Of a stretch of 20,534 nt of DNA, positions 3,070 through 12,036 are shown one piece after another. The position numbers and the translations under genes are program-made. Each line of letters begins with the position of its first letter. Position 1 is the stretch's first letter. The DNA is from a virus. The notes under the pieces were generated by a model that worked only from the letters and a program-made list of their open reading frames with translations, ran no database searches and was not told the DNA's origin. The DNA is taken from positions 1-20,534 of IMG/VR virus record IMGVR_UViG_3300037584_000868; one strand, 5' to 3'.

Positions 3070-3225
3070 ATGAAACCAGATGATTTAGCTATTGCAGTAG
3101 GCGGTATATCTGCACCAATGTGGCTACCTGTCTTAAACCAATGGGTTGCATTAGTTGTAGGTGTTTTGTCAATAACATACTTAGCTATAAAAATATATAA
3201 AGCAACAAGGAAACAAAAGCTATGA
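3070..3225 (+). CDS. Small membrane protein, possible holin
   Basis: A 51-aa protein starting one base after the previous stop. It has a hydrophobic stretch at about 6-20 and a clear transmembrane segment at about 26-44 (VALVVGVLSITYLAIKIY), then a basic tail KATRKQKL. Size, hydrophobicity and basic C-terminus fit a small holin, but no endolysin gene lies in the window to support this. The ribosome site is weak (GAG at 3060-3062), so translation may depend on coupling to the gene before it. An in-frame ATG at 3058 would add four residues but has no Shine-Dalgarno sequence. The stop overlaps the next start (ATGA at 3222-3225). Confidence 0.6.
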   Translation: MKPDDLAIAVGGISAPMWLPVLNQWVALVVGVLSITYLAIKIYKATRKQKL

Positions 3226-5231
3226 TGCAGTTCAAAGCATTTAAACCAGAAGGTCTAAATAAAATAGCAGGGGCTATGGGCTATGAAGGTGATATGTCCA
3301 AGTTTCAAGATTTTATTGAGCAAGACCCAGCACGTATGGCACGTATGAATATGTTTACCCAAGCTGCACAGCAGATGGCACGTGGTGGCATGGTTAAGAT
3401 GCAAACAGGTGGTTTTGTTCCTTTTGGAAGTGTTCAGCCCGTACAAAGTGGCGGAAGTTTTCCTGCTGGACCCCCTACTGATAATGCAGATTTTATTGGT
3501 AATGATACAGACCCTAATAGGTCAGGTATTTTTTCTAATGTGCCACCAAAAGAAGGTGAAGAAAGCGAACCAGATGCAGGTAGTGACATTGTAAGGTTTT
3601 CTGAAAAGCGTGTTACAGAACCTGCTTTACCTGTAGGCGGTGTAACGCAAGCAGTGGGAATAGCGGAAGACCCTCGTCAATTTGTTCCAGAAGGAACTGG
3701 TGCTTTAAAAGAACCAGCACCATTAGTTGATGTTGCTTTAGCTGAAACTGCACAAGCGGAAGCTGCACGTGAAGTGGAAGCTAATACCTATCAAGCACAG
3801 CAAGCAGCACCAGCAATAGAAACAGCATTGCAAGCTACAGAAGCTGCGCAGAGAGACCCCGATGACCCTCGCGCAAAAGTAGCAGCAGCGCAGCAAATAG
3901 CATCCTCTGTGGGTAATTTAGACGCAGCAAAGGGTAAAGCTATTCTTATGGAAAACCCTGTGCAAAGAGAAATACAACAGGGTGAATTAATTTCAGGTGT
4001 TGCTAACGCTCAAACAGCCGCACAGTTTACTGAACAGATACAGGCTGCTGAAGCTACCCCCTCACAGCAAGCTACGGTGCAAGGTCAACTTTCTCAACTT
4101 ACGCAAAACTTTGATGCAGCTAACCCACCATCATGGGCGTCAGGAGCATTGAGAAATGCAAATGCACAGATGGCAGCACGTGGACTTGGCGCATCATCTC
4201 TTGCTGGACAAGCTATTGTGCAAGCTACACTAGAGGCGGCTCTTCCTATTGCACAAGCAGATGCTTCTACGATTGCAAAATTTGAATCTCAAAACTTATC
4301 TAATCGTCAGCAAGTTGCAATGCTTGCAGCGGAACAACGTGCTAAGTTTATAGGGCAAGAATTTGACCAAGCCTTTCAAGCAAGGGTACAAAACGCTTCT
4401 CGTATTGCAGATGTAGCAAATCAAAATTTTACTGCTGACCAACAGATTGCTTTAGAAAATAGTAAGTTTGCAAACAGTATGAATATGACAAACTTATCTA
4501 ACGAGCAAGCGTTAATACTTGCAGAAGCGAGTGCGTTGTCTGGATTAGATTTATCAAACCTAGATAAAAGACAGCAAGCATCAGTTCAAAATGCACAGGC
4601 TTTCTTAGCAAGAGATGCTCAAAATTTAACTAACCAACAGCAAACAGAGTTGTTTAAAGGTGAAAAAAGAACACAGTCTATATTTAGTGACCAAGCTGCT
4701 ACAAATATGGAACGTCAAATTAATGCTCAGTCGCAAAATCAAATGGACACATTGTTTGCTAATATATTTTCACAAACATCTCAGTTTAATGCAGCACAAG
4801 CTAATGCGGTAGCACAGTCTAATGCAGGTCAAATAAATGCTTCAGAGAGATATAATTCTGAGTTGTTAAATCAACGTGAGATGTTTGATGCACAAAATTA
4901 TTTAGAAATTGCACAACGAGCAGCAACGTGGCGTAGAGAAATTGCTACATTAGAAACTGCTGCATTAAACAGAGCAAACGAACTAAATGCAAATTCTATA
5001 CTTGATGTTAGTAAACAAGCCTACGATAATCTATGGAATTATTATGCTGACACAATGGAGTTTGCATGGACATCTGCGGATAATGCTGCAGATAGACATA
5101 ATAAATTAGCTACCGCTAAAATATCTGCTGACTCTAGTATGGATATACAAAAACTAGTAGGTAAGCAAGAGGCTAGTTCAGCTATGGGCAGTTTTGCAAT
5201 GGATATATTTAAATCTGTATTTAGTTTTTAA
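3222..5231 (+). CDS. Gln/Ala/Asn-rich internal virion (ejection-type) protein with 22-residue repeats
   Basis: A 669-aa protein, almost entirely helical by composition (Gln, Ala, Asn) and without cysteine. Residues 53-66 carry a glycine-rich ARGGMVKMQTGG segment, followed by a Pro/Gly-rich disordered stretch to about 160. Residues 358-489 form six consecutive 22-residue units, most opening with N-(L/F)-x-x-x-Q; the register continues weakly to about 577. The C-terminus is SFAMDIFKSVFSF, an amphipathic or membrane-seeking end. Position before two very large proteins resembles the T7 gp14-gp15-gp16 ejectosome set, and I infer a similar role, but no sequence homology to gp14 is evident. AAGGAA at 3207-3212 supports the start; a second ATG at 3225 would remove one residue. 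Confidence 0.6.
   Translation: MMQFKAFKPEGLNKIAGAMGYEGDMSKFQDFIEQDPARMARMNMFTQAAQQMARGGMVKMQTGGFVPFGSVQPVQSGGSFPAGPPTDNADFIGNDTDPNRSGIFSNVPPKEGEESEPDAGSDIVRFSEKRVTEPALPVGGVTQAVGIAEDPRQFVPEGTGALKEPAPLVDVALAETAQAEAAREVEANTYQAQQAAPAIETALQATEAAQRDPDDPRAKVAAAQQIASSVGNLDAAKGKAILMENPVQREIQQGELISGVANAQTAAQFTEQIQAAEATPSQQATVQGQLSQLTQNFDAANPPSWASGALRNANAQMAARGLGASSLAGQAIVQATLEAALPIAQADASTIAKFESQNLSNRQQVAMLAAEQRAKFIGQEFDQAFQARVQNASRIADVANQNFTADQQIALENSKFANSMNMTNLSNEQALILAEASALSGLDLSNLDKRQQASVQNAQAFLARDAQNLTNQQQTELFKGEKRTQSIFSDQAATNMERQINAQSQNQMDTLFANIFSQTSQFNAAQANAVAQSNAGQINASERYNSELLNQREMFDAQNYLEIAQRAATWRREIATLETAALNRANELNANSILDVSKQAYDNLWNYYADTMEFAWTSADNAADRHNKLATAKISADSSMDIQKLVGKQEASSAMGSFAMDIFKSVFSF
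4293..4688 (+). repeat. Six tandem 22-residue (2 x 11) helical repeats in the 669-aa protein
   Basis: Units begin at residues 358, 380, 402, 424, 446 and 468, exactly 22 apart. First positions are N, E, N, N, N, N and second positions L, F, F, L, L, L; Gln clusters at positions 6-7 (NLSNRQQ, NFTADQQ, NLDKRQQ, NLTNQQQ). Three further 22-residue steps keep Asn/Asp at position 1 (D490, N534, D556) but are otherwise diverged. The DNA copies are diverged, so this is old and under protein-level selection. Confidence 0.75.
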
Positions 5232-5246
5232 AATGGAGTTTAAAAA

Positions 5247-5450
5247 ATGCGTTCAAATACAATGACAAATGGAGCAAGGCAAGCTATACGTATGGCTAGG
5301 GCAAAAATGAAAGATTTTAAAGAAGAACCTGAAGTTAAAGAAGTTAGTCTTATGCAGCGTCCAGATAAGGCAAAAGAACAAGGTGATGATTTTATAGAAA
5401 AAACAATTATGCAAGTAAGGAAATTTGGTAATGCTAAACGCACAGCGTGA
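5247..5450 (+). CDS. Small basic phage protein, unknown function
   Basis: A 67-aa highly charged protein (Lys/Arg/Glu-rich, no cysteine) with GGAG at 5235-5238, eight bases before the ATG. It is likely helical at residues 8-30 and 45-62. It lies between two presumed virion genes and its last 20 bases overlap the next coding region in another frame, so the two are probably translated together. I do not recognise a family. A structural scaffold or a small internal virion component is possible from context only. Confidence 0.6.
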   Translation: MRSNTMTNGARQAIRMARAKMKDFKEEPEVKEVSLMQRPDKAKEQGDDFIEKTIMQVRKFGNAKRTA

Positions 5451-5940
5451 ACCATCATTTGATAGACCTATACCCGGACAGTCAATGACTGCACCTTTGG
5501 GTGAAAGACCGTGGCAAAATCCACCAAGGTATGCTTCTGTTGAGGAAACTTTGCAGTTTTATATGCCTCGTATTACTAGTCAAAAGATGGCTAATCAGTT
5601 AATGGACATTCTTGAAATGGGGGTTCCTATTGATACTGTTGTTGATACTGTTCAACTAGGTGGTGTTATGGAAGGTGTACATAGTGTTGATGTTGGTATT
5701 TTAATATCACCTGTGTTAGCTGAAGTAATTGAGCAAATGGCTATTGCTGCAGATGTAAATTATACACTAGAAGGTAAAGAGGAAGATGAAGAAACACCGG
5801 ATGATTCTGAAATAGCACTAGCAATGATGGAAGCTGCAAAGAAAACTGGACTCGCTATCAAAGAAGAAACAGTAGTAGAGGAAGAAGAAGCACCTGTAGA
5901 AAAATTGCAACCTAAAGGTCTAATGGCAAGGAGAGCATAA
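5431..5940 (+). CDS. Conserved-type phage protein with acidic C-terminal half, unknown function
   Basis: A 169-aa protein counted from ATG 5431, which has AAGGAAA at 5417-5423 at good spacing; a TTG two codons upstream lies too close to that site. The N-terminus carries a Pro-rich FDRPIPGQSM segment, then a folded helical core at about 40-110 (residues LQFYMPRITSQKMANQLMD onward). The C-terminal third is strongly acidic (EGKEEDEETPDD, VVEEEEAPVEK) and the protein ends in a basic KGLMARRA tail. Proteins opening with PIPGQS occur in marine phage virion blocks, but I cannot assign a function. The acidic stretch could act in scaffolding or in keeping a partner soluble. Confidence 0.6.
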   Translation: MLNAQREPSFDRPIPGQSMTAPLGERPWQNPPRYASVEETLQFYMPRITSQKMANQLMDILEMGVPIDTVVDTVQLGGVMEGVHSVDVGILISPVLAEVIEQMAIAADVNYTLEGKEEDEETPDDSEIALAMMEAAKKTGLAIKEETVVEEEEAPVEKLQPKGLMARRA

Positions 5941-7092
5941 ATGTTTATCATGTCTTCATTTCTTGGCGGTGCTGCCAAACGTGGCTCTGAAATTATGGAA
6001 GAAGAGCGTAAGAATACACAGAAGATTGTGGACAGCACAATGAGTCTGTGGACAGAGTTAGGTGTACCTGCTTACAAAGAAAGAAAACAAAAGCGCAAAG
6101 ACTTGTCTATGAAGTTTGAAACTCTAAGTAACTATGGTTATTCAGGAGACCAAATTGAAATAGCCGCAAGAGAGAATAGTTTAGATGACCTGATTAAATA
6201 CACTAAGAAAGCTACTGCAGGTGAATTTGGTCCTGATTTTAAGTTTAATGTTGCAGAAATTGTAAAACTTACTCCTGACTATAAAGAGACAGGCAGAACA
6301 AAAGCACAAATACTTGATAGCATTATGGGTAAGGTAGAACGTGGCATGGATTTATCGGATGCTATCGAAGAGGCAGGTGGACAGACAAAAGGTTTCATGG
6401 GTCAAGACTTGTCAGGAATTGCTAAGAAAAGAGCAGAGGCATATCAAACAGGTATGGGCGTTGATATACAAACACTCGCTGCTTTGTCACGTGGCGATGT
6501 AACTATGGAAGACTCACCTGTAAGTGGCACAGTTCGTATGTTTGACCCAACTGCTGAAGCAAAAGCAAAGCAAGCATTGTCAGGTGGTCAAACAGGCCAG
6601 CCGGGTATTAGCACTGCATCAAGAATGGTTGAAGCAAACATACTTGCAGGATTAGAAGGTTCAGTATTTCAAGGCCAAGGTGCAGATGGTATTCCACTAT
6701 ATAGCCACGAAAAGAAAGAGCAGGTTGCTAAATTAAAAAGAATTATACGTGAAGAAATGGCAACAAGAAACATTAACAGATACAGTGCTGCTGATTTAGA
6801 TGAATTAGAACAAGCTGTATCAAAACGAATGGGAGTATCTGCTCAAGGCGGAGGGCAAGTTGGTGATAAAAAAGCAGAAGGAGTAACTCCTAGTGATGCA
6901 ATAACTATGGAATCAGATGCTATTTCTCGTATACAAAGATTACCTGAAGATGCCGGGTCAAAGAAAGCAGACATAATAGAAGATGTAGTTAGAAAAATCT
7001 ATGAATACTACTTAAAAAAAGAGGGTGAACAAAAAGCAAAACAAAAAGCTGCTGAAGCGAGAGACAGGATAATCGGAAAAATTAGAGGCTAA
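5941..7092 (+). CDS. Putative internal virion protein (383 aa)
   Basis: Starts directly after the previous stop with AAGGAGA at 5928-5934; a second in-frame ATG at 5950 is further from that site. It is charged and mostly helical, with a helical N-terminus (AKRGSEIMEEERKN), a mixed middle, a Gly/Gln-rich linker around 215-225 and a Lys-rich C-terminal helix (about 345-383). It has no cysteine, membrane segment or catalytic motif that I can recognise. Placement between the repeat protein and the 1034-aa protein, with a one-base gap to the latter, suggests a component of the same ejected or internal complex. That role is inferred from context. Confidence 0.55.
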   Translation: MFIMSSFLGGAAKRGSEIMEEERKNTQKIVDSTMSLWTELGVPAYKERKQKRKDLSMKFETLSNYGYSGDQIEIAARENSLDDLIKYTKKATAGEFGPDFKFNVAEIVKLTPDYKETGRTKAQILDSIMGKVERGMDLSDAIEEAGGQTKGFMGQDLSGIAKKRAEAYQTGMGVDIQTLAALSRGDVTMEDSPVSGTVRMFDPTAEAKAKQALSGGQTGQPGISTASRMVEANILAGLEGSVFQGQGADGIPLYSHEKKEQVAKLKRIIREEMATRNINRYSAADLDELEQAVSKRMGVSAQGGGQVGDKKAEGVTPSDAITMESDAISRIQRLPEDAGSKKADIIEDVVRKIYEYYLKKEGEQKAKQKAAEARDRIIGKIRG

Positions 7093-7093
7093 C

Positions 7094-10000
7094 ATGCTAA
7101 AAAACTACAATCAAAGAGATGACATATCAGAAGACGACTTGTTGTCTGACGTAGATTTTATTAGGGATGCTGGTCTTTTTCTAAGAGAACGTGACGGTAT
7201 TCAAGAACCCTTAACTACGCAAGAAACATATGACAAGTTTATGGAGCATATGCGTTATCAAAATGTAAATGAGGTAACTGCTCTTCGTGACCTTGAGTAT
7301 GCACAGAACTCTGACCTTGAAGGCAAGCAGCGTTTTGCTAGACTGATAGATGCCTACGATAAAGTAGATACATCTTTTGGTGGCAAGATGATGGGTGATT
7401 ATATTCAGGGCATAGCTACTGCACCATCGACTTATCTTGGTTTAGCAACAGGTGGGTTTGGTAAGGCTGCATCCGTTGCTGGCACACAAGCTGCAAAGAT
7501 AGGACTGCGTAAAGTGCTGTCTACTACAATGCGTGAAGCAACTAAAACTGCTACACGTAGGGCTATGACTGCTGGTGCAGTAGAGGGAACTATAGGTGCA
7601 GGTCAAGCACTAGCACAAGAAGAAGTGCGGGTAGAAACAGGACTGCAAGATAAGATAGACAAAGGTCAGGTAGGTTTAACTGCTGCAATATCAGGTGTGA
7701 CAGGTGGACTACTATCTTTTCCAGTAGCTTCTCGTGCCATGACAAAAGGCAAAGAAGCAGATGAGTTATACGAAGCAGCACAGTTTGCTGCGGCTGAAAA
7801 AGCAAATAAGGCAAGTAAAGCTACAGCACGCATACTCAAAGACAATTCCCCAAAAGATATAACACGGGTGCAGCGTGGACTAAACCAGCTTGACCCTACA
7901 AAGGTAGCCATAGGGCGTAAGTTGAAACAGGACTTACAGCCCGGTGAAACTATGGAAGCTGCACTAGGTTCTGATGTATTTAAAAATATTACTGCTGCTA
8001 CCCTGCAAGTTTCTAAAAAACTAAAATTAAAAAAGGGTGACAGAATAACTGAGGGTATAACAAGATTAATTCAGGAAGGTGAGTTGGATAAGGTTAAAGA
8101 CATTCGCAATATTATGGATGAACACAATCTTACTCTTGACCAGTTTTCTCTTGTGTACTACGCAGAAATGTCAGAGGCTGGACGAACACTGGCACAAGGT
8201 AGTGTGGTAAAACGTGCAGTTGACCCTGCATTAAAACCTGCTAAGAATGTTGTTGATAGATTTGTTGACGATATAGATAAGTTAAATGAAGCAGGTGTGT
8301 CACCCCTATCAGGTGCAGAAGCTAGACGTGCTACTGTTGATGCGGAAAGAAGACACTACATAAAAGACTTAGATAGTTTGCGTCTTGGTTTGATGACATC
8401 TCAGCTTGCTACCACCATGCGTAACAATATCAATGGTGGCTTGCGTATTGGTATAGATGCTACTACACGTGCTTTTGATAACGTACTTAACTTACGTAAT
8501 CCGTTGGATGGTACATTTGATGTAGCTAAGTATGCACTTAATCCACAAGAAGCAAGTGTTATACGTCAGATATATACAGATGCTTTTCCTGAAGAGGCAG
8601 CTAAACTATTTAGAGAAGCGGCTGACCTGTCAGCAGTTACATCTTCAGAAACAGTTCTAGCCAAAATAGGAAGAAAAGCAAACTTTTTAAACACGGCATC
8701 TGATAACTTTTTTAAAAGTTCAGTTATGGCTGCGTCACTTAGAAGACAGTTGTCAGACTCAGGTGAAAATTTAAATGACATAATTAGACGTGGTGATTTT
8801 AATAAAATTGATGATAAGATTATGCAACGTGCTGTTGACGATGCATACGAGTTTACCTATCAGAGTAGCTTCAAGGGCAACGACAGATTTAGTAAAGCTG
8901 TTCGTGGTTTTCTTAACACGCATCAAGACTTTCCATTTCTTATCTCTACCTTTATGCCCTTCCCACGATTCATTGCAAACCAGTTAAAGTTTATCTATCA
9001 ACATGCTCCGTTGATGAGCCTTGCAAATCCTCTTGACCAAACAAACACAAGTAAAAAAATAGCTAGACAAATGACAGGCATGGCTATGCTTGGCACTGCT
9101 CTTGCTTGGAGAACAAAGCAAGGTGAAACAAATAACTGGTATGAGATAAAAACTAATGATGGTAAGATTGTAGATGGCAGACCTGTCTATGGTCCTTTTG
9201 CACCGTTCATGCTTGCTGCAGATTTAATGTATCGTGGTTATAATGGCACTCTTCCTACATCTTCTAGTAAGTATTTTAGAGATGCCTCACAAGCACTGCT
9301 TGGTTCTACGTTTAGAACAGGTTTTGGTTTGTACATGCTTGACCAGCTATGGACTGATGTTGGTAATCAAAAATCTCCAAAGATAATTGGTGAAGCAGTA
9401 GGTAACTTGATAAATACATACACACTACCTGCATCTGTAATAAAAGATTTCTATGCTCCGCTTGATAAAGAGTCTCGTTACATACCAGAGACACGAACAG
9501 GTGAGGTAGAAAAGGAAACAAGTTTCTTTAATATTGTGTATGAAACAGCAAAGGCTCGTGGACTACGTGCAATGCCAGACTTCCCTGCAGGTGGATATGA
9601 TAGACCAGCACGTTCACCTTTTCAAACAGGACCGTTAATGGCGCAGGATGCAGTAGAAAAGCAACTGTTTGGTATGGGCAAACGCCCACAGAAAACTATC
9701 TTGCAAAAGGAGATGGCCCGATTAAACATAGATAGCTATGAGTTGTACAAAAGACAGCCTAATGACAGGTTAGATATGTACATGCGTCAAGAACTGTCAC
9801 GTGAAGATGGTGCGCTTAATCTTACGGATAAACTAGAGAATGTTATTCTGGGTAAAACATACCAAAATAAAAATATTCAAGAGCGTAGGGTTGAACTTAA
9901 AGAACAGGTAAGCAAGGTAGTAGAAAGAGCAAAAGAAAGAGCAACCAACCGTATAGAACGTGAAGCAGCAGAAGCAGGTGAACCTTATACATCACTAGAC

Positions 10001-10198
10001 TTAACAGCTTGGGATAGAACACCTAAGTTAATTAAGGATGTTGTACAAAAAAGATATGAAGAAGATTACGGTGGTGGTTCTATTTTGGGTGAAAGAAACG
10101 AGTCAATTGCAGTTGGTGGACGTGATATGAATGTGTTACGTTGGGCAGTAGAAACCGCTAACAAAGAAGATATCAGAACTGGTGGAGTAGTTCGGTGA
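7094..10198 (+). CDS. Large internal virion / DNA-ejection protein
   Basis: This is the largest gene in the window (1034 aa) with AGAGG at 7084-7088. After a charged N-terminus, residues about 100-215 hold two Gly/Ala-rich hydrophobic stretches (GIATAPSTYLGLATGG at 106-121; GLTAAISGVTGGLLSFPVA at 194-212) that could insert in a membrane. A third hydrophobic/aromatic zone, FPFLISTFMPFPRFIANQL, lies near 615-635. The C-terminus is a charged helix. Size, position and membrane-prone segments match the T7 gp15/gp16 class of proteins that leave the capsid first and build the DNA channel. I see no lytic transglycosylase motif like that of T7 gp16. Its stop overlaps the GTG start of the next gene. 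Confidence 0.6.
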   Translation: MLKNYNQRDDISEDDLLSDVDFIRDAGLFLRERDGIQEPLTTQETYDKFMEHMRYQNVNEVTALRDLEYAQNSDLEGKQRFARLIDAYDKVDTSFGGKMMGDYIQGIATAPSTYLGLATGGFGKAASVAGTQAAKIGLRKVLSTTMREATKTATRRAMTAGAVEGTIGAGQALAQEEVRVETGLQDKIDKGQVGLTAAISGVTGGLLSFPVASRAMTKGKEADELYEAAQFAAAEKANKASKATARILKDNSPKDITRVQRGLNQLDPTKVAIGRKLKQDLQPGETMEAALGSDVFKNITAATLQVSKKLKLKKGDRITEGITRLIQEGELDKVKDIRNIMDEHNLTLDQFSLVYYAEMSEAGRTLAQGSVVKRAVDPALKPAKNVVDRFVDDIDKLNEAGVSPLSGAEARRATVDAERRHYIKDLDSLRLGLMTSQLATTMRNNINGGLRIGIDATTRAFDNVLNLRNPLDGTFDVAKYALNPQEASVIRQIYTDAFPEEAAKLFREAADLSAVTSSETVLAKIGRKANFLNTASDNFFKSSVMAASLRRQLSDSGENLNDIIRRGDFNKIDDKIMQRAVDDAYEFTYQSSFKGNDRFSKAVRGFLNTHQDFPFLISTFMPFPRFIANQLKFIYQHAPLMSLANPLDQTNTSKKIARQMTGMAMLGTALAWRTKQGETNNWYEIKTNDGKIVDGRPVYGPFAPFMLAADLMYRGYNGTLPTSSSKYFRDASQALLGSTFRTGFGLYMLDQLWTDVGNQKSPKIIGEAVGNLINTYTLPASVIKDFYAPLDKESRYIPETRTGEVEKETSFFNIVYETAKARGLRAMPDFPAGGYDRPARSPFQTGPLMAQDAVEKQLFGMGKRPQKTILQKEMARLNIDSYELYKRQPNDRLDMYMRQELSREDGALNLTDKLENVILGKTYQNKNIQERRVELKEQVSKVVERAKERATNRIEREAAEAGEPYTSLDLTAWDRTPKLIKDVVQKRYEEDYGGGSILGERNESIAVGGRDMNVLRWAVETANKEDIRTGGVVR

Positions 10199-12036
10199 AA
10201 AGCATAACAGGTAATTTAGATTTAAATTTGTTTAATGCAGATGATGAGGATAACACAGATTTTTATCCTGACGTAAAAATGTTACAAACAGTAGGTGAAT
10301 TTGCTTTGGATATGACACCTATAGTTGGTGACATCAAAGCTGCTACCGAACTGCCAGAGGATATGCGTATGGCACGTGCGCTTATTGAAGAAGGCTACGA
10401 AGAAGGTGACATCATCGACATGGGATTAGGTGGTGCGCTTGGTGCATTGTCATTGGCAGGTTTTATACCAGCAGGTGGTGCAGTAGCTGATGTACTAAAG
10501 AAAGGTGTTAAGGAAACCGCCAAGTCACGTGCGTCTGAACAGACAAAAGAAATACTGGACAAAGGGTTGGCTACACGTGGTAGAAAAACTGTAGATATAG
10601 AGGAAGCCGAATTTAGTGGTGAACCCAAACAAAAACCTACACCTAAAGTATTTCATGGTGCTTCAAGTATGCGTTCCTCTCGTGCATCTGAGGGTAAAAG
10701 ATACACAAACCTTATGGGCAGCTTTAAAAGTACGTATATAAGAGACCCCCTCTTAGACATGTTTGACAGTTCCAAGATAGGTGACGATGCAGCATTATCC
10801 GCAGATGATATAATAAAGAAGCAAGATGGAAGAATAGCTGTTCCTGTTGGTAGCCCAGATGGAGAAGTCACACCTGCTACCGTTCAGTTTAGAAAAAATG
10901 AGGACGGTAATTTAGATGTTTATTTCTTTGACCCAGAAACAGGAGTGTCAACGGATAGTCCAATAGAAACAGTGTACAAAAGTATAGATAATAAGTTTTC
11001 TTACAACAAGATAAAAATTGCGCTTGAAGATATTAGCTTGGACTTATCAGCACCAGCAGGAGATGTTGGCGGAACAAGAATAGATGCTATTCGAGAAGGG
11101 GGTTTTGAAGCCTATGAGGACTTCAGGGGTGAAAGAGGATTAAGTGGTGAATCAACAGGCGAACACAACGAATTAAAACAAAAGATGTTATCAACCTCTC
11201 GTGACCCATTGGTAGCAATGAAGCCGGGATTTGGTGCGGGTGATACTAAAAACCTTGTATATGCAGACTTGCCACCAGAGTTAACAAGAGATATGAGTCC
11301 TGAAGAATATACAAAAAGAGTAATACCTGAATTAGCTAAAGGGCAGATAGGTTACAGACTTCCAAAGAGTATACACCTTGAAGCAGAAGAAGCTATAGCA
11401 AATCCTGAGTTACTTGATGCTAAAGTCCTAGCAGATAATCCTGAACTTCAAGCTAAAGTTCAACGTGGTCAGGATATGGTAAATGACATACTTAAAAAGA
11501 AAGATACTATATATACAGATGTTCAGTATCCTGAATCTGCTAAAGGTGTAAGACAAATGTATAACAGAACAAAAGAAGTTCTAAACAAGTTGCAATCTCT
11601 TGGTCAGTTTACAGAACAATATGGCGCACGTGGAACATATGACGATTTATTAGAAACTTTATTAGACACTAACAAAAGCCATGATTTTGTTGACGCAATT
11701 CAATTGCTTCCTAATGACTTGCCAGACGGACAACGCAAAAAAATTGCAACGAGTATGAGGTCTATACTAAATAGAATAGGTACTACAAGTATTTCAGGTG
11801 CTAAGTTTAAGGCAGAAGAGGTTCTATCTGGTGTATCTGATAAAGATTTGAATGATGCGTTGTTTAGTACAAAACGTGTGGGTGCTAGAAAGAAAAGAGA
11901 ATTAGATGATGCTGGTCTAGGAATATTTATGGATGGTGCACTAGACCTAGAAAAGCTAGGATACAAAGACCTTAAACGATTGCTGTTCTTAGGAACACAG
12001 AAAATGAACAGAGGCGGGTTAGCCTCACGTAAATAA
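10195..12036 (+). CDS. Internal virion protein with pretoxin-like helix and possible ADP-ribosyltransferase-like motifs
   Basis: A 613-aa protein starting at GTG 10195 within GTGA, overlapping the previous stop; GGAG at 10184-10187 supports it. Residues 36-103 (TPIVGDIKAA at 41-50, then GLGGALGALSLAGFIPAGG at 77-95) resemble the hydrophobic pretoxin segment seen before toxin domains in polymorphic toxins. KVFHGAS at 151-157 and LSTSRDPLVA at 332-341 resemble the H-G and S-T-S strands of ADP-ribosyltransferase folds, with glutamates at 362, 370, 371 and 379 as possible catalytic candidates. The long gap between the two motifs is unusual. The C-terminus is NRGGLASRK. As the last gene of the virion block it may be an ejected protein, possibly an effector; both the domain and the role are tentative. 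Confidence 0.6.
   Translation: MKSITGNLDLNLFNADDEDNTDFYPDVKMLQTVGEFALDMTPIVGDIKAATELPEDMRMARALIEEGYEEGDIIDMGLGGALGALSLAGFIPAGGAVADVLKKGVKETAKSRASEQTKEILDKGLATRGRKTVDIEEAEFSGEPKQKPTPKVFHGASSMRSSRASEGKRYTNLMGSFKSTYIRDPLLDMFDSSKIGDDAALSADDIIKKQDGRIAVPVGSPDGEVTPATVQFRKNEDGNLDVYFFDPETGVSTDSPIETVYKSIDNKFSYNKIKIALEDISLDLSAPAGDVGGTRIDAIREGGFEAYEDFRGERGLSGESTGEHNELKQKMLSTSRDPLVAMKPGFGAGDTKNLVYADLPPELTRDMSPEEYTKRVIPELAKGQIGYRLPKSIHLEAEEAIANPELLDAKVLADNPELQAKVQRGQDMVNDILKKKDTIYTDVQYPESAKGVRQMYNRTKEVLNKLQSLGQFTEQYGARGTYDDLLETLLDTNKSHDFVDAIQLLPNDLPDGQRKKIATSMRSILNRIGTTSISGAKFKAEEVLSGVSDKDLNDALFSTKRVGARKKRELDDAGLGIFMDGALDLEKLGYKDLKRLLFLGTQKMNRGGLASRK

Follow-up and report, generated by a model that had tools for sequence, protein, structure and literature searches.

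The DNA analysed here (the window), a linear 20,534-nt fragment from IMG/VR, is part of the genome of a marine podovirus of the HMO-2011 type. Its gene of interest encodes a 669-aa repeat protein (Table 1) that matches phage1322_25 of Puniceispirillum phage HMO-2011 (ADW08438, annotated there as 'hypothetical protein') with 60% identity over 98% of the protein by tblastn. Tail-fibre genes lie directly upstream, and the gene order from this point on matches HMO-2011: the repeat gene is followed by genes for a ~170-aa, a middle-sized and a ~1000-aa protein and then, on the opposite strand as in HMO-2011, by those for MazG, a class II ribonucleotide reductase, an endonuclease and a PolA with CXXCXGXG motifs. 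In HMO-2011, Sinorhizobium phiM6, Aeromonas MQM1 and Vibrio CHOED, too, the repeat gene comes first in a conserved group of genes. Across the HMO-2011, CRP, HTVC, Rhizobium, Aeromonas and Vibrio phages, the homologs of phage1322_25 are the same gene in the same position and register, annotated as hypothetical protein, once as 'huntingtin' and once not at all. A 613-aa gene (window 10195-12036) overlaps the end of the 1034-aa gene; just 9 of the ORFs searched were homologous to it. HMO-2011 has no equivalent, its 1128-aa gene being followed by that for MazG.

Table 1. Features of the repeat gene and its operon (coordinates refer to the window)
Feature	Coordinates	Strand	Basis
CDS, 669-aa repeat protein	3222..5231	+	ORF; tblastn to phages; HMO-2011 annotation
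Residues 1-230, N-terminal part	3222..3911	+	Any-size indels abundant among homologs; spread of first Met-to-A length
Residues 303-348, conserved helical anchor block A	4128..4265	+	Block HMM in 267 family members
Segment A-B, residues 349-485, 22-residue double hendecads	4266..4676	+	Homolog lengths; 22-register composition
22-residue unit at 358, NLSNRQQVAML AAEQRAKFIGQ	4293..4358	+	
22-residue unit at 380, degenerate, EFDQAFQ	4359..4424	+	
22-residue unit at 402, NFTADQQ	4425..4490	+	
22-residue unit at 424, NLSNEQA	4491..4556	+	
22-residue unit at 446, NLDKRQQ	4557..4622	+	
22-residue unit at 468, NLTNQQQ, extends into block B	4623..4688	+	
Segment B-C, residues 486-557, single hendecads, FNAxxxNAxxQ type	4677..4892	+	Homolog lengths; register composition
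Residues 558-625, conserved helical block C	4893..5096	+	Block HMM in 266 family members
Residues 626-669, variable C-terminal tail	5097..5228	+	Tail comparison, alignment of relatives
171-aa partner protein, listed from TTG start	5425..5940	+	Family downstream of repeat gene
383-aa operon protein	5941..7092	+	Gene order as HMO-2011, phiM6, MQM1, CHOED; fast-diverging
1034-aa operon protein	7094..10198	+	AF2 pTM 0.57; Foldseek against BFVD

The 669-aa protein had no Pfam match, and a PHROG search returned only a weak match to a PHROG of unknown function. A PDB profile search found no solved relative (matches to NEMO at E 0.7 were judged to be chance), and comparison of its AF2 model with the PDB gave no meaningful match. 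The initial annotation knew of no named family with this repeat, and these searches bear it out. Two conserved blocks flank the repeat: block A, with the pattern PxWAxGAxR...RGLGASSxAGQAxxQAxxEAALPIAQADA, is covered by a stretch of about residues 279-348 modelled by AF2 at pLDDT 81-87, while block C follows AxWRRxIATxxTAAxNxANxxNA...LWxYYxDTMEWAWxSAENxxDR.

Residues 358-577 had been described as carrying an exact 22-residue periodicity built on the motif N[LF]xxxQQ, and the periodicity is real and stronger than first described. The coordinates given for it were exact, with residue 358 at nt 4293 and residue 577 ending at nt 4952. BLOSUM62 autocorrelation over these residues was significant at lags of 11, 22, 33 and 44 (z = 3.6, 4.8, 3.9 and 5.3, respectively), and 0 of 2000 shuffles reached the observed maximum, which rules out chance as its source; by the same method, residues 200-357 had no periodicity. 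The motif is exact at residues 358, 402, 446 and 468 but not at 424, where the second Q is replaced by A (NLSNEQA). The unit at 380 is weak, as had been noted, and the register is kept at D490, N534 and D556. Of the claimed 22-residue period, the part over residues 358-485 stands, whereas residues 490-577 follow an 11-residue FNA-type repeat. Because no DNA-level repeats were found in the window and the 22-mers of the protein share a mean pairwise identity of 22%, we consider the repeat units to be ancient.

The number of repeats was compared in a family set drawn from IMG/VR and named phages, with 262 anchored members of which 214 are distinct between the anchors. HMMs of three conserved blocks served as anchors and were placed independently in each sequence; in the window protein block A ends at residue 348, B starts at 486 and C starts at 558. 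In the 214 distinct sequences the A-to-C length lies between 133 and 408 residues and falls into 13 A-B/B-C length classes, and the A-B length equals 6 mod 11 in all 214, as does the B-C length. The number of repeats therefore varies among homologs always in whole 11-residue units. Further, the A-B length equals 6 mod 22 in 213 of the 214, the exception being CRP-207, whose A-B segment differs by 11 residues. Length steps in A-B are almost only of 22 residues, corresponding to an NL[ST]NxQQ double unit, and those in B-C are of 11 residues, corresponding to an FNA unit. Because A-B lengths follow 6 mod 22 and B-C also changes by single 11s, the true unit is the hendecad, doubled in the first half (A-B). 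The longest rods (408 residues from A to C, with 14 double units) occur in most of L178-L185.

This length rule is confined to the segments between the anchors. Both the length before A (130 distinct lengths) and the length after C (52 distinct lengths) fall into all 11 classes mod 11, and when moduli from 2 to 23 were compared, only 11 placed the observed lengths in a single class. Regular-expression anchors, again placed independently, gave total lengths in one class mod 11 in 139 of 139 cases; some regex B-anchors were off by whole units, which leaves the total lengths unaffected. An anchor artefact is ruled out, as the HMM and regex methods agree. Among 80 relatives with 50-68% identity, we counted 0 indels in residues 341-600 and many in the N-terminal 229 residues. 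Several homologs (L019, L044, L065, L073, L079, L081, CRP-1 and CRP-603) have greatly enlarged N-terminal parts, giving proteins of ~860-1140 aa, with an unchanged rod length.

The length class has changed at least 11 times by parsimony on a tree of 155 sequences, which was built from the blocks only (144 columns) and has many unresolved forks; counted apart, there are 7 changes in A-B and 6 in B-C. Recent tandem duplication was rejected as an explanation of the rule, given the lack of DNA repeats and the low identity between units, though the units could stem from old unequal recombination. Repeat-mediated duplication would already favour changes by whole units; the absence of all other indels still requires selection. 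In the strict 11-residue rule, held through these changes, helical register has left a direct record of its action as a selective constraint, which is rarely seen. Both the repeat and its length rule hold throughout the family, and the literature searched apparently contains no description of them.

Composition was tabulated in register for a consensus set of 50 sequences with <75% identity. The first half of the A-B unit reads N(84%)-L(74%)-[DSTN](88%)-N(59%)-[RKE]-Q(77%)-Q(70%)-A-x-[VLIM](91%)-x and the second half N-A-Q-x-F-x-Q-[MFLI]-D-[LM]-A, the latter (even) half resembling the FNA hendecads. The B-C consensus is F-N-A-x-x-x-N-A-x-x-Q, with F in 71% at position 11, N in 60% at position 1 and N in 64% at position 6, and these hendecads have a single main hydrophobic face at positions 11/4/8. 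In the register tables Asn+Gln make up 28% and Lys about 4%; the repeat region is very likely to be alpha-helical because proline is absent (0) and glycine is at ~1%. AF2 predicted only helices over the repeat at low confidence (pLDDT 62, pTM 0.29), and residues 358-577 did not yield a globular fold with any confidence. Together with the single 11-residue phase of the homologs, this agrees with the 11-residue helical repeat that was first proposed. The right-handed coiled coil or tube proposed with it is less clearly borne out. The low-confidence AF2 model has helix breaks near the boundaries of the 22-residue units. The A-B wheel has two hydrophobic faces with charges and amides between them and no dominant one, a suggestive likeness to the two seams and amide/guanidinium lumen of phiX174 H that is not significant in a permutation test (P = 0.26 for two seams, with only 11 positions) and on which we do not base a tube.

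The surroundings of the repeat gene suggest that it takes first place in an ejection operon. Each of the 170 testable loci (170 of 170) has a member of the ~170-aa partner family no more than 2.3 kb downstream from the repeat gene, making the 171-aa protein its most constant neighbour, and our searches gave this protein no confident family assignment. The 383-aa protein would occupy the slot of the middle ejection protein, judging solely from gene order and size. For the 1034-aa protein, a Foldseek search of BFVD with its AF2 model gave matches to internal virion proteins of Synechococcus S-CBP2 and S-RIP1 (E about 1e-5, prob 1.00) as well as several LPD-annotated phage proteins (E 1e-5 or better). 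The same model had no match in the PDB. This protein thus appears to resemble internal virion proteins in its predicted fold. A set of small, middle and large operon proteins is likewise found in T7 (gp14/15/16), P22 (gp7/20/16), SU10 (gp20-24) and DEV (gp71-73). In T7, SU10 and DEV such proteins leave the capsid and build a conduit across the envelope (PMC8954989, PMC9509320, PMC10925440); in the kuravirus SU10, all five proteins gp20-24 exit the virion at genome release (PMC9509320). The 669-aa protein is best filed with these podoviral ejection-module proteins, with which it shares the first place in the operon and a large partner similar to internal virion proteins in predicted fold. The earlier suggestion that it may be ejected fits this apparent internal-virion/ejection operon, which would make it a virion protein. 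With hhalign and HMM comparisons we found no homology between the repeat region and podoviral ejection proteins, the only matches being those of an S74 tail in relatives, and the literature searched held no description of a hendecad repeat in the T7, P22, SU10 or DEV ejection proteins.

Our preferred reading, which we consider to have about an even chance of being right, is that the ejection operon begins with the 669-aa protein and that this protein is a self-associating, register-locked hendecad rod that serves as a helical conduit or pilot rod. The long alpha-helical hendecad rod would span residues 349 to about 600, the sequence suggesting that the helix is continuous. Since 11 residues make three helical turns with little drift, blocks A and C would keep the same rotation under 11-residue steps. 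If the rod self-associates, as its sequence suggests, and its ends (blocks A and C) are held in a fixed rotational register, gain or loss of whole hendecads would preserve that register and other indels would be eliminated. The 22-residue NL[ST]NxQQ half may pack differently from the 11-residue FNA half. Given the gene context, the protein would be packed in the capsid, exit with the DNA and provide, between the tail and the cell envelope, a helical conduit or pilot rod rich in Asn/Gln. Possible working analogues are the hendecad tube of phiX174 H and the nonameric long-helix channel of DEV gp73 (PMC10925440). The approximately threefold spread of rod lengths argues against a simple fixed periplasm-spanning tube or ruler. 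We found no published virion proteomics or structure of any family member in the literature searched, which also held no description of the DNA delivery mechanism of HMO-2011-type phages.

A rather unlikely alternative for the A-B half is that each 22-mer is a short helix followed by a tight turn, so that this half would be a zigzag or solenoid and not a continuous coiled coil. The N-L-[STDN] start could act as C-cap/N-cap with Q6 closing a capping box (S/T/D/N in 88% at position 3 and Q in 77% at position 6), and the AF2 helix breaks (378-382, 403-404, 420-426, 468-471, 535-538 and 575-576) all fall near starts of the 22-register, a length of 6 mod 22 in 213 of 214 homologs being consistent with the same idea. 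However, the 11-residue difference in CRP-207 breaks this pattern, the supposed turns have no Pro and almost no Gly, and the even half of the 22-mer looks like an FNA hendecad. The breaks themselves are weak evidence, with pLDDT there about 45-60.

The C-terminal tails bear on whether the rod is ejected at all. Tails of relatives have a Gly/Ala-rich segment that is sometimes followed by a Peptidase_S74 domain or a CWVAREVYG-type extension, and C-terminal modules are freely exchanged in the family. The module starting at about CWVAREVYG is present in L082 (HMO-2011) and L002 and absent from the window protein. Peptidase_S74 acts as a trimer in tailspikes and fibres, and Pfam places it at the C-terminus of CRP-3 and CRP-738. 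Trimeric coiled-coil needles and fibres with S74 as an intramolecular chaperone also share the long helical repeat. The protein could be a trimeric right-handed coiled-coil rod outside the virion, a tail needle or fibre that is not ejected. Long tail fibre proteins among the S74 matches, the tail-fibre genes immediately upstream and the one main hydrophobic face in B-C, like that of a single-core bundle, agree with such a rod. We nevertheless regard it as unlikely, as the window protein lacks S74 (Pfam search) and its downstream partner genes look internal to the virion. Nor is the S74 tail specific to fibres: its matches include phrog_4287 'DNA ejection protein' as well as proteins annotated for injection/ejection in Salmonella phage 7-11 and Pseudoalteromonas H6/1, and in H6/1, AH02 and DB2 the S74 gene directly precedes genes annotated as ejection protein or P22-like injection translocase/hydrolase. 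For the preferred ejected rod, S74 in some relatives implies trimers, and a DNA tube would need more subunits than three, unless several trimers join up. The repeat core itself had no homology to 7-11 gp020, H6/1 gp17, AH02 11, DB2 gp18 or PVA1 by hhalign and HMM; a vaguely similar Gly-Ser motif can be seen by eye between it and the 7-11, H6/1, AH02, DB2 and PVA1 proteins.

It is quite improbable that the protein is instead a structural core or scaffold in the capsid that is left there and does not pass into the cell. The operon position would suit any internal virion protein, ejection itself being read from this context, but members of such operons exit the virion in characterised short-tailed phages (PMC8954989, PMC9509320). 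Very improbable is the amphipathic helix lying on membranes, as in apolipoproteins or synuclein, that the initial annotation raised: 11/22-residue periodicity would suit it, but the repeat is Asn/Gln/Ala-rich with few Lys and has polar Asn/Gln all round the wheel, A-B lacks a dominant hydrophobic face, no membrane-like hydrophobic stretch passed the threshold used in the 669-aa protein, and a strict in-phase length suggests protein-protein register, which would be superfluous for lipid binding.

Within the preferred ejected-rod reading, the closest functional parallel is phiX174 H, a DNA pilot protein that forms a decameric alpha-helical tube and, like the 669-aa protein, has hendecads in a long Gln/Asn-rich helix. 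In phiX174 H the hendecads line the DNA tube with Asn/Gln/Arg and the protein is the route by which the genome crosses the cell wall (PMC7354561), whereas for the 669-aa protein a conduit role is suggested by its gene context. phiX174 is an ssDNA microvirus and the window belongs to a dsDNA podovirus; H has three hendecads followed by heptads, compared with about 12-37 11-residue units between the anchors here. Membership in the phiX174 H family was rejected, as no sequence or profile relation was found, and the H chain was absent among the PDB profile matches up to E 1. By analogy, the 669-aa protein perhaps works like phiX174 H. More specifically, it is possible, though doubtful, that it is a dsDNA-phage counterpart of H, an Asn/Gln-lined hendecad barrel, modular by 11 or 22 residues, that conducts the genome and whose length is set by the number of hendecads. 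If true, this would link short-tailed dsDNA phages to the hendecad tube principle of phiX174, and an H-like barrel would be the genome conduit in a virus group that ranks among the most abundant in the ocean.

Finally, the 'huntingtin' label belongs to the L091 (ctYwJ313) homolog and is probably an annotation error arising from its Gln-rich sequence. A short RGG[ML]-like motif recurs in the window, as MARGGMVKMQTGG in the 669-aa protein (window ~3375-3416) and, C-terminally in the 613-aa protein (window ~12007-12033), as MNRGGLASRK. The C-terminus of the 171-aa protein, PKGLMARRA (window ~5914-5937), bears a vague likeness to this motif.
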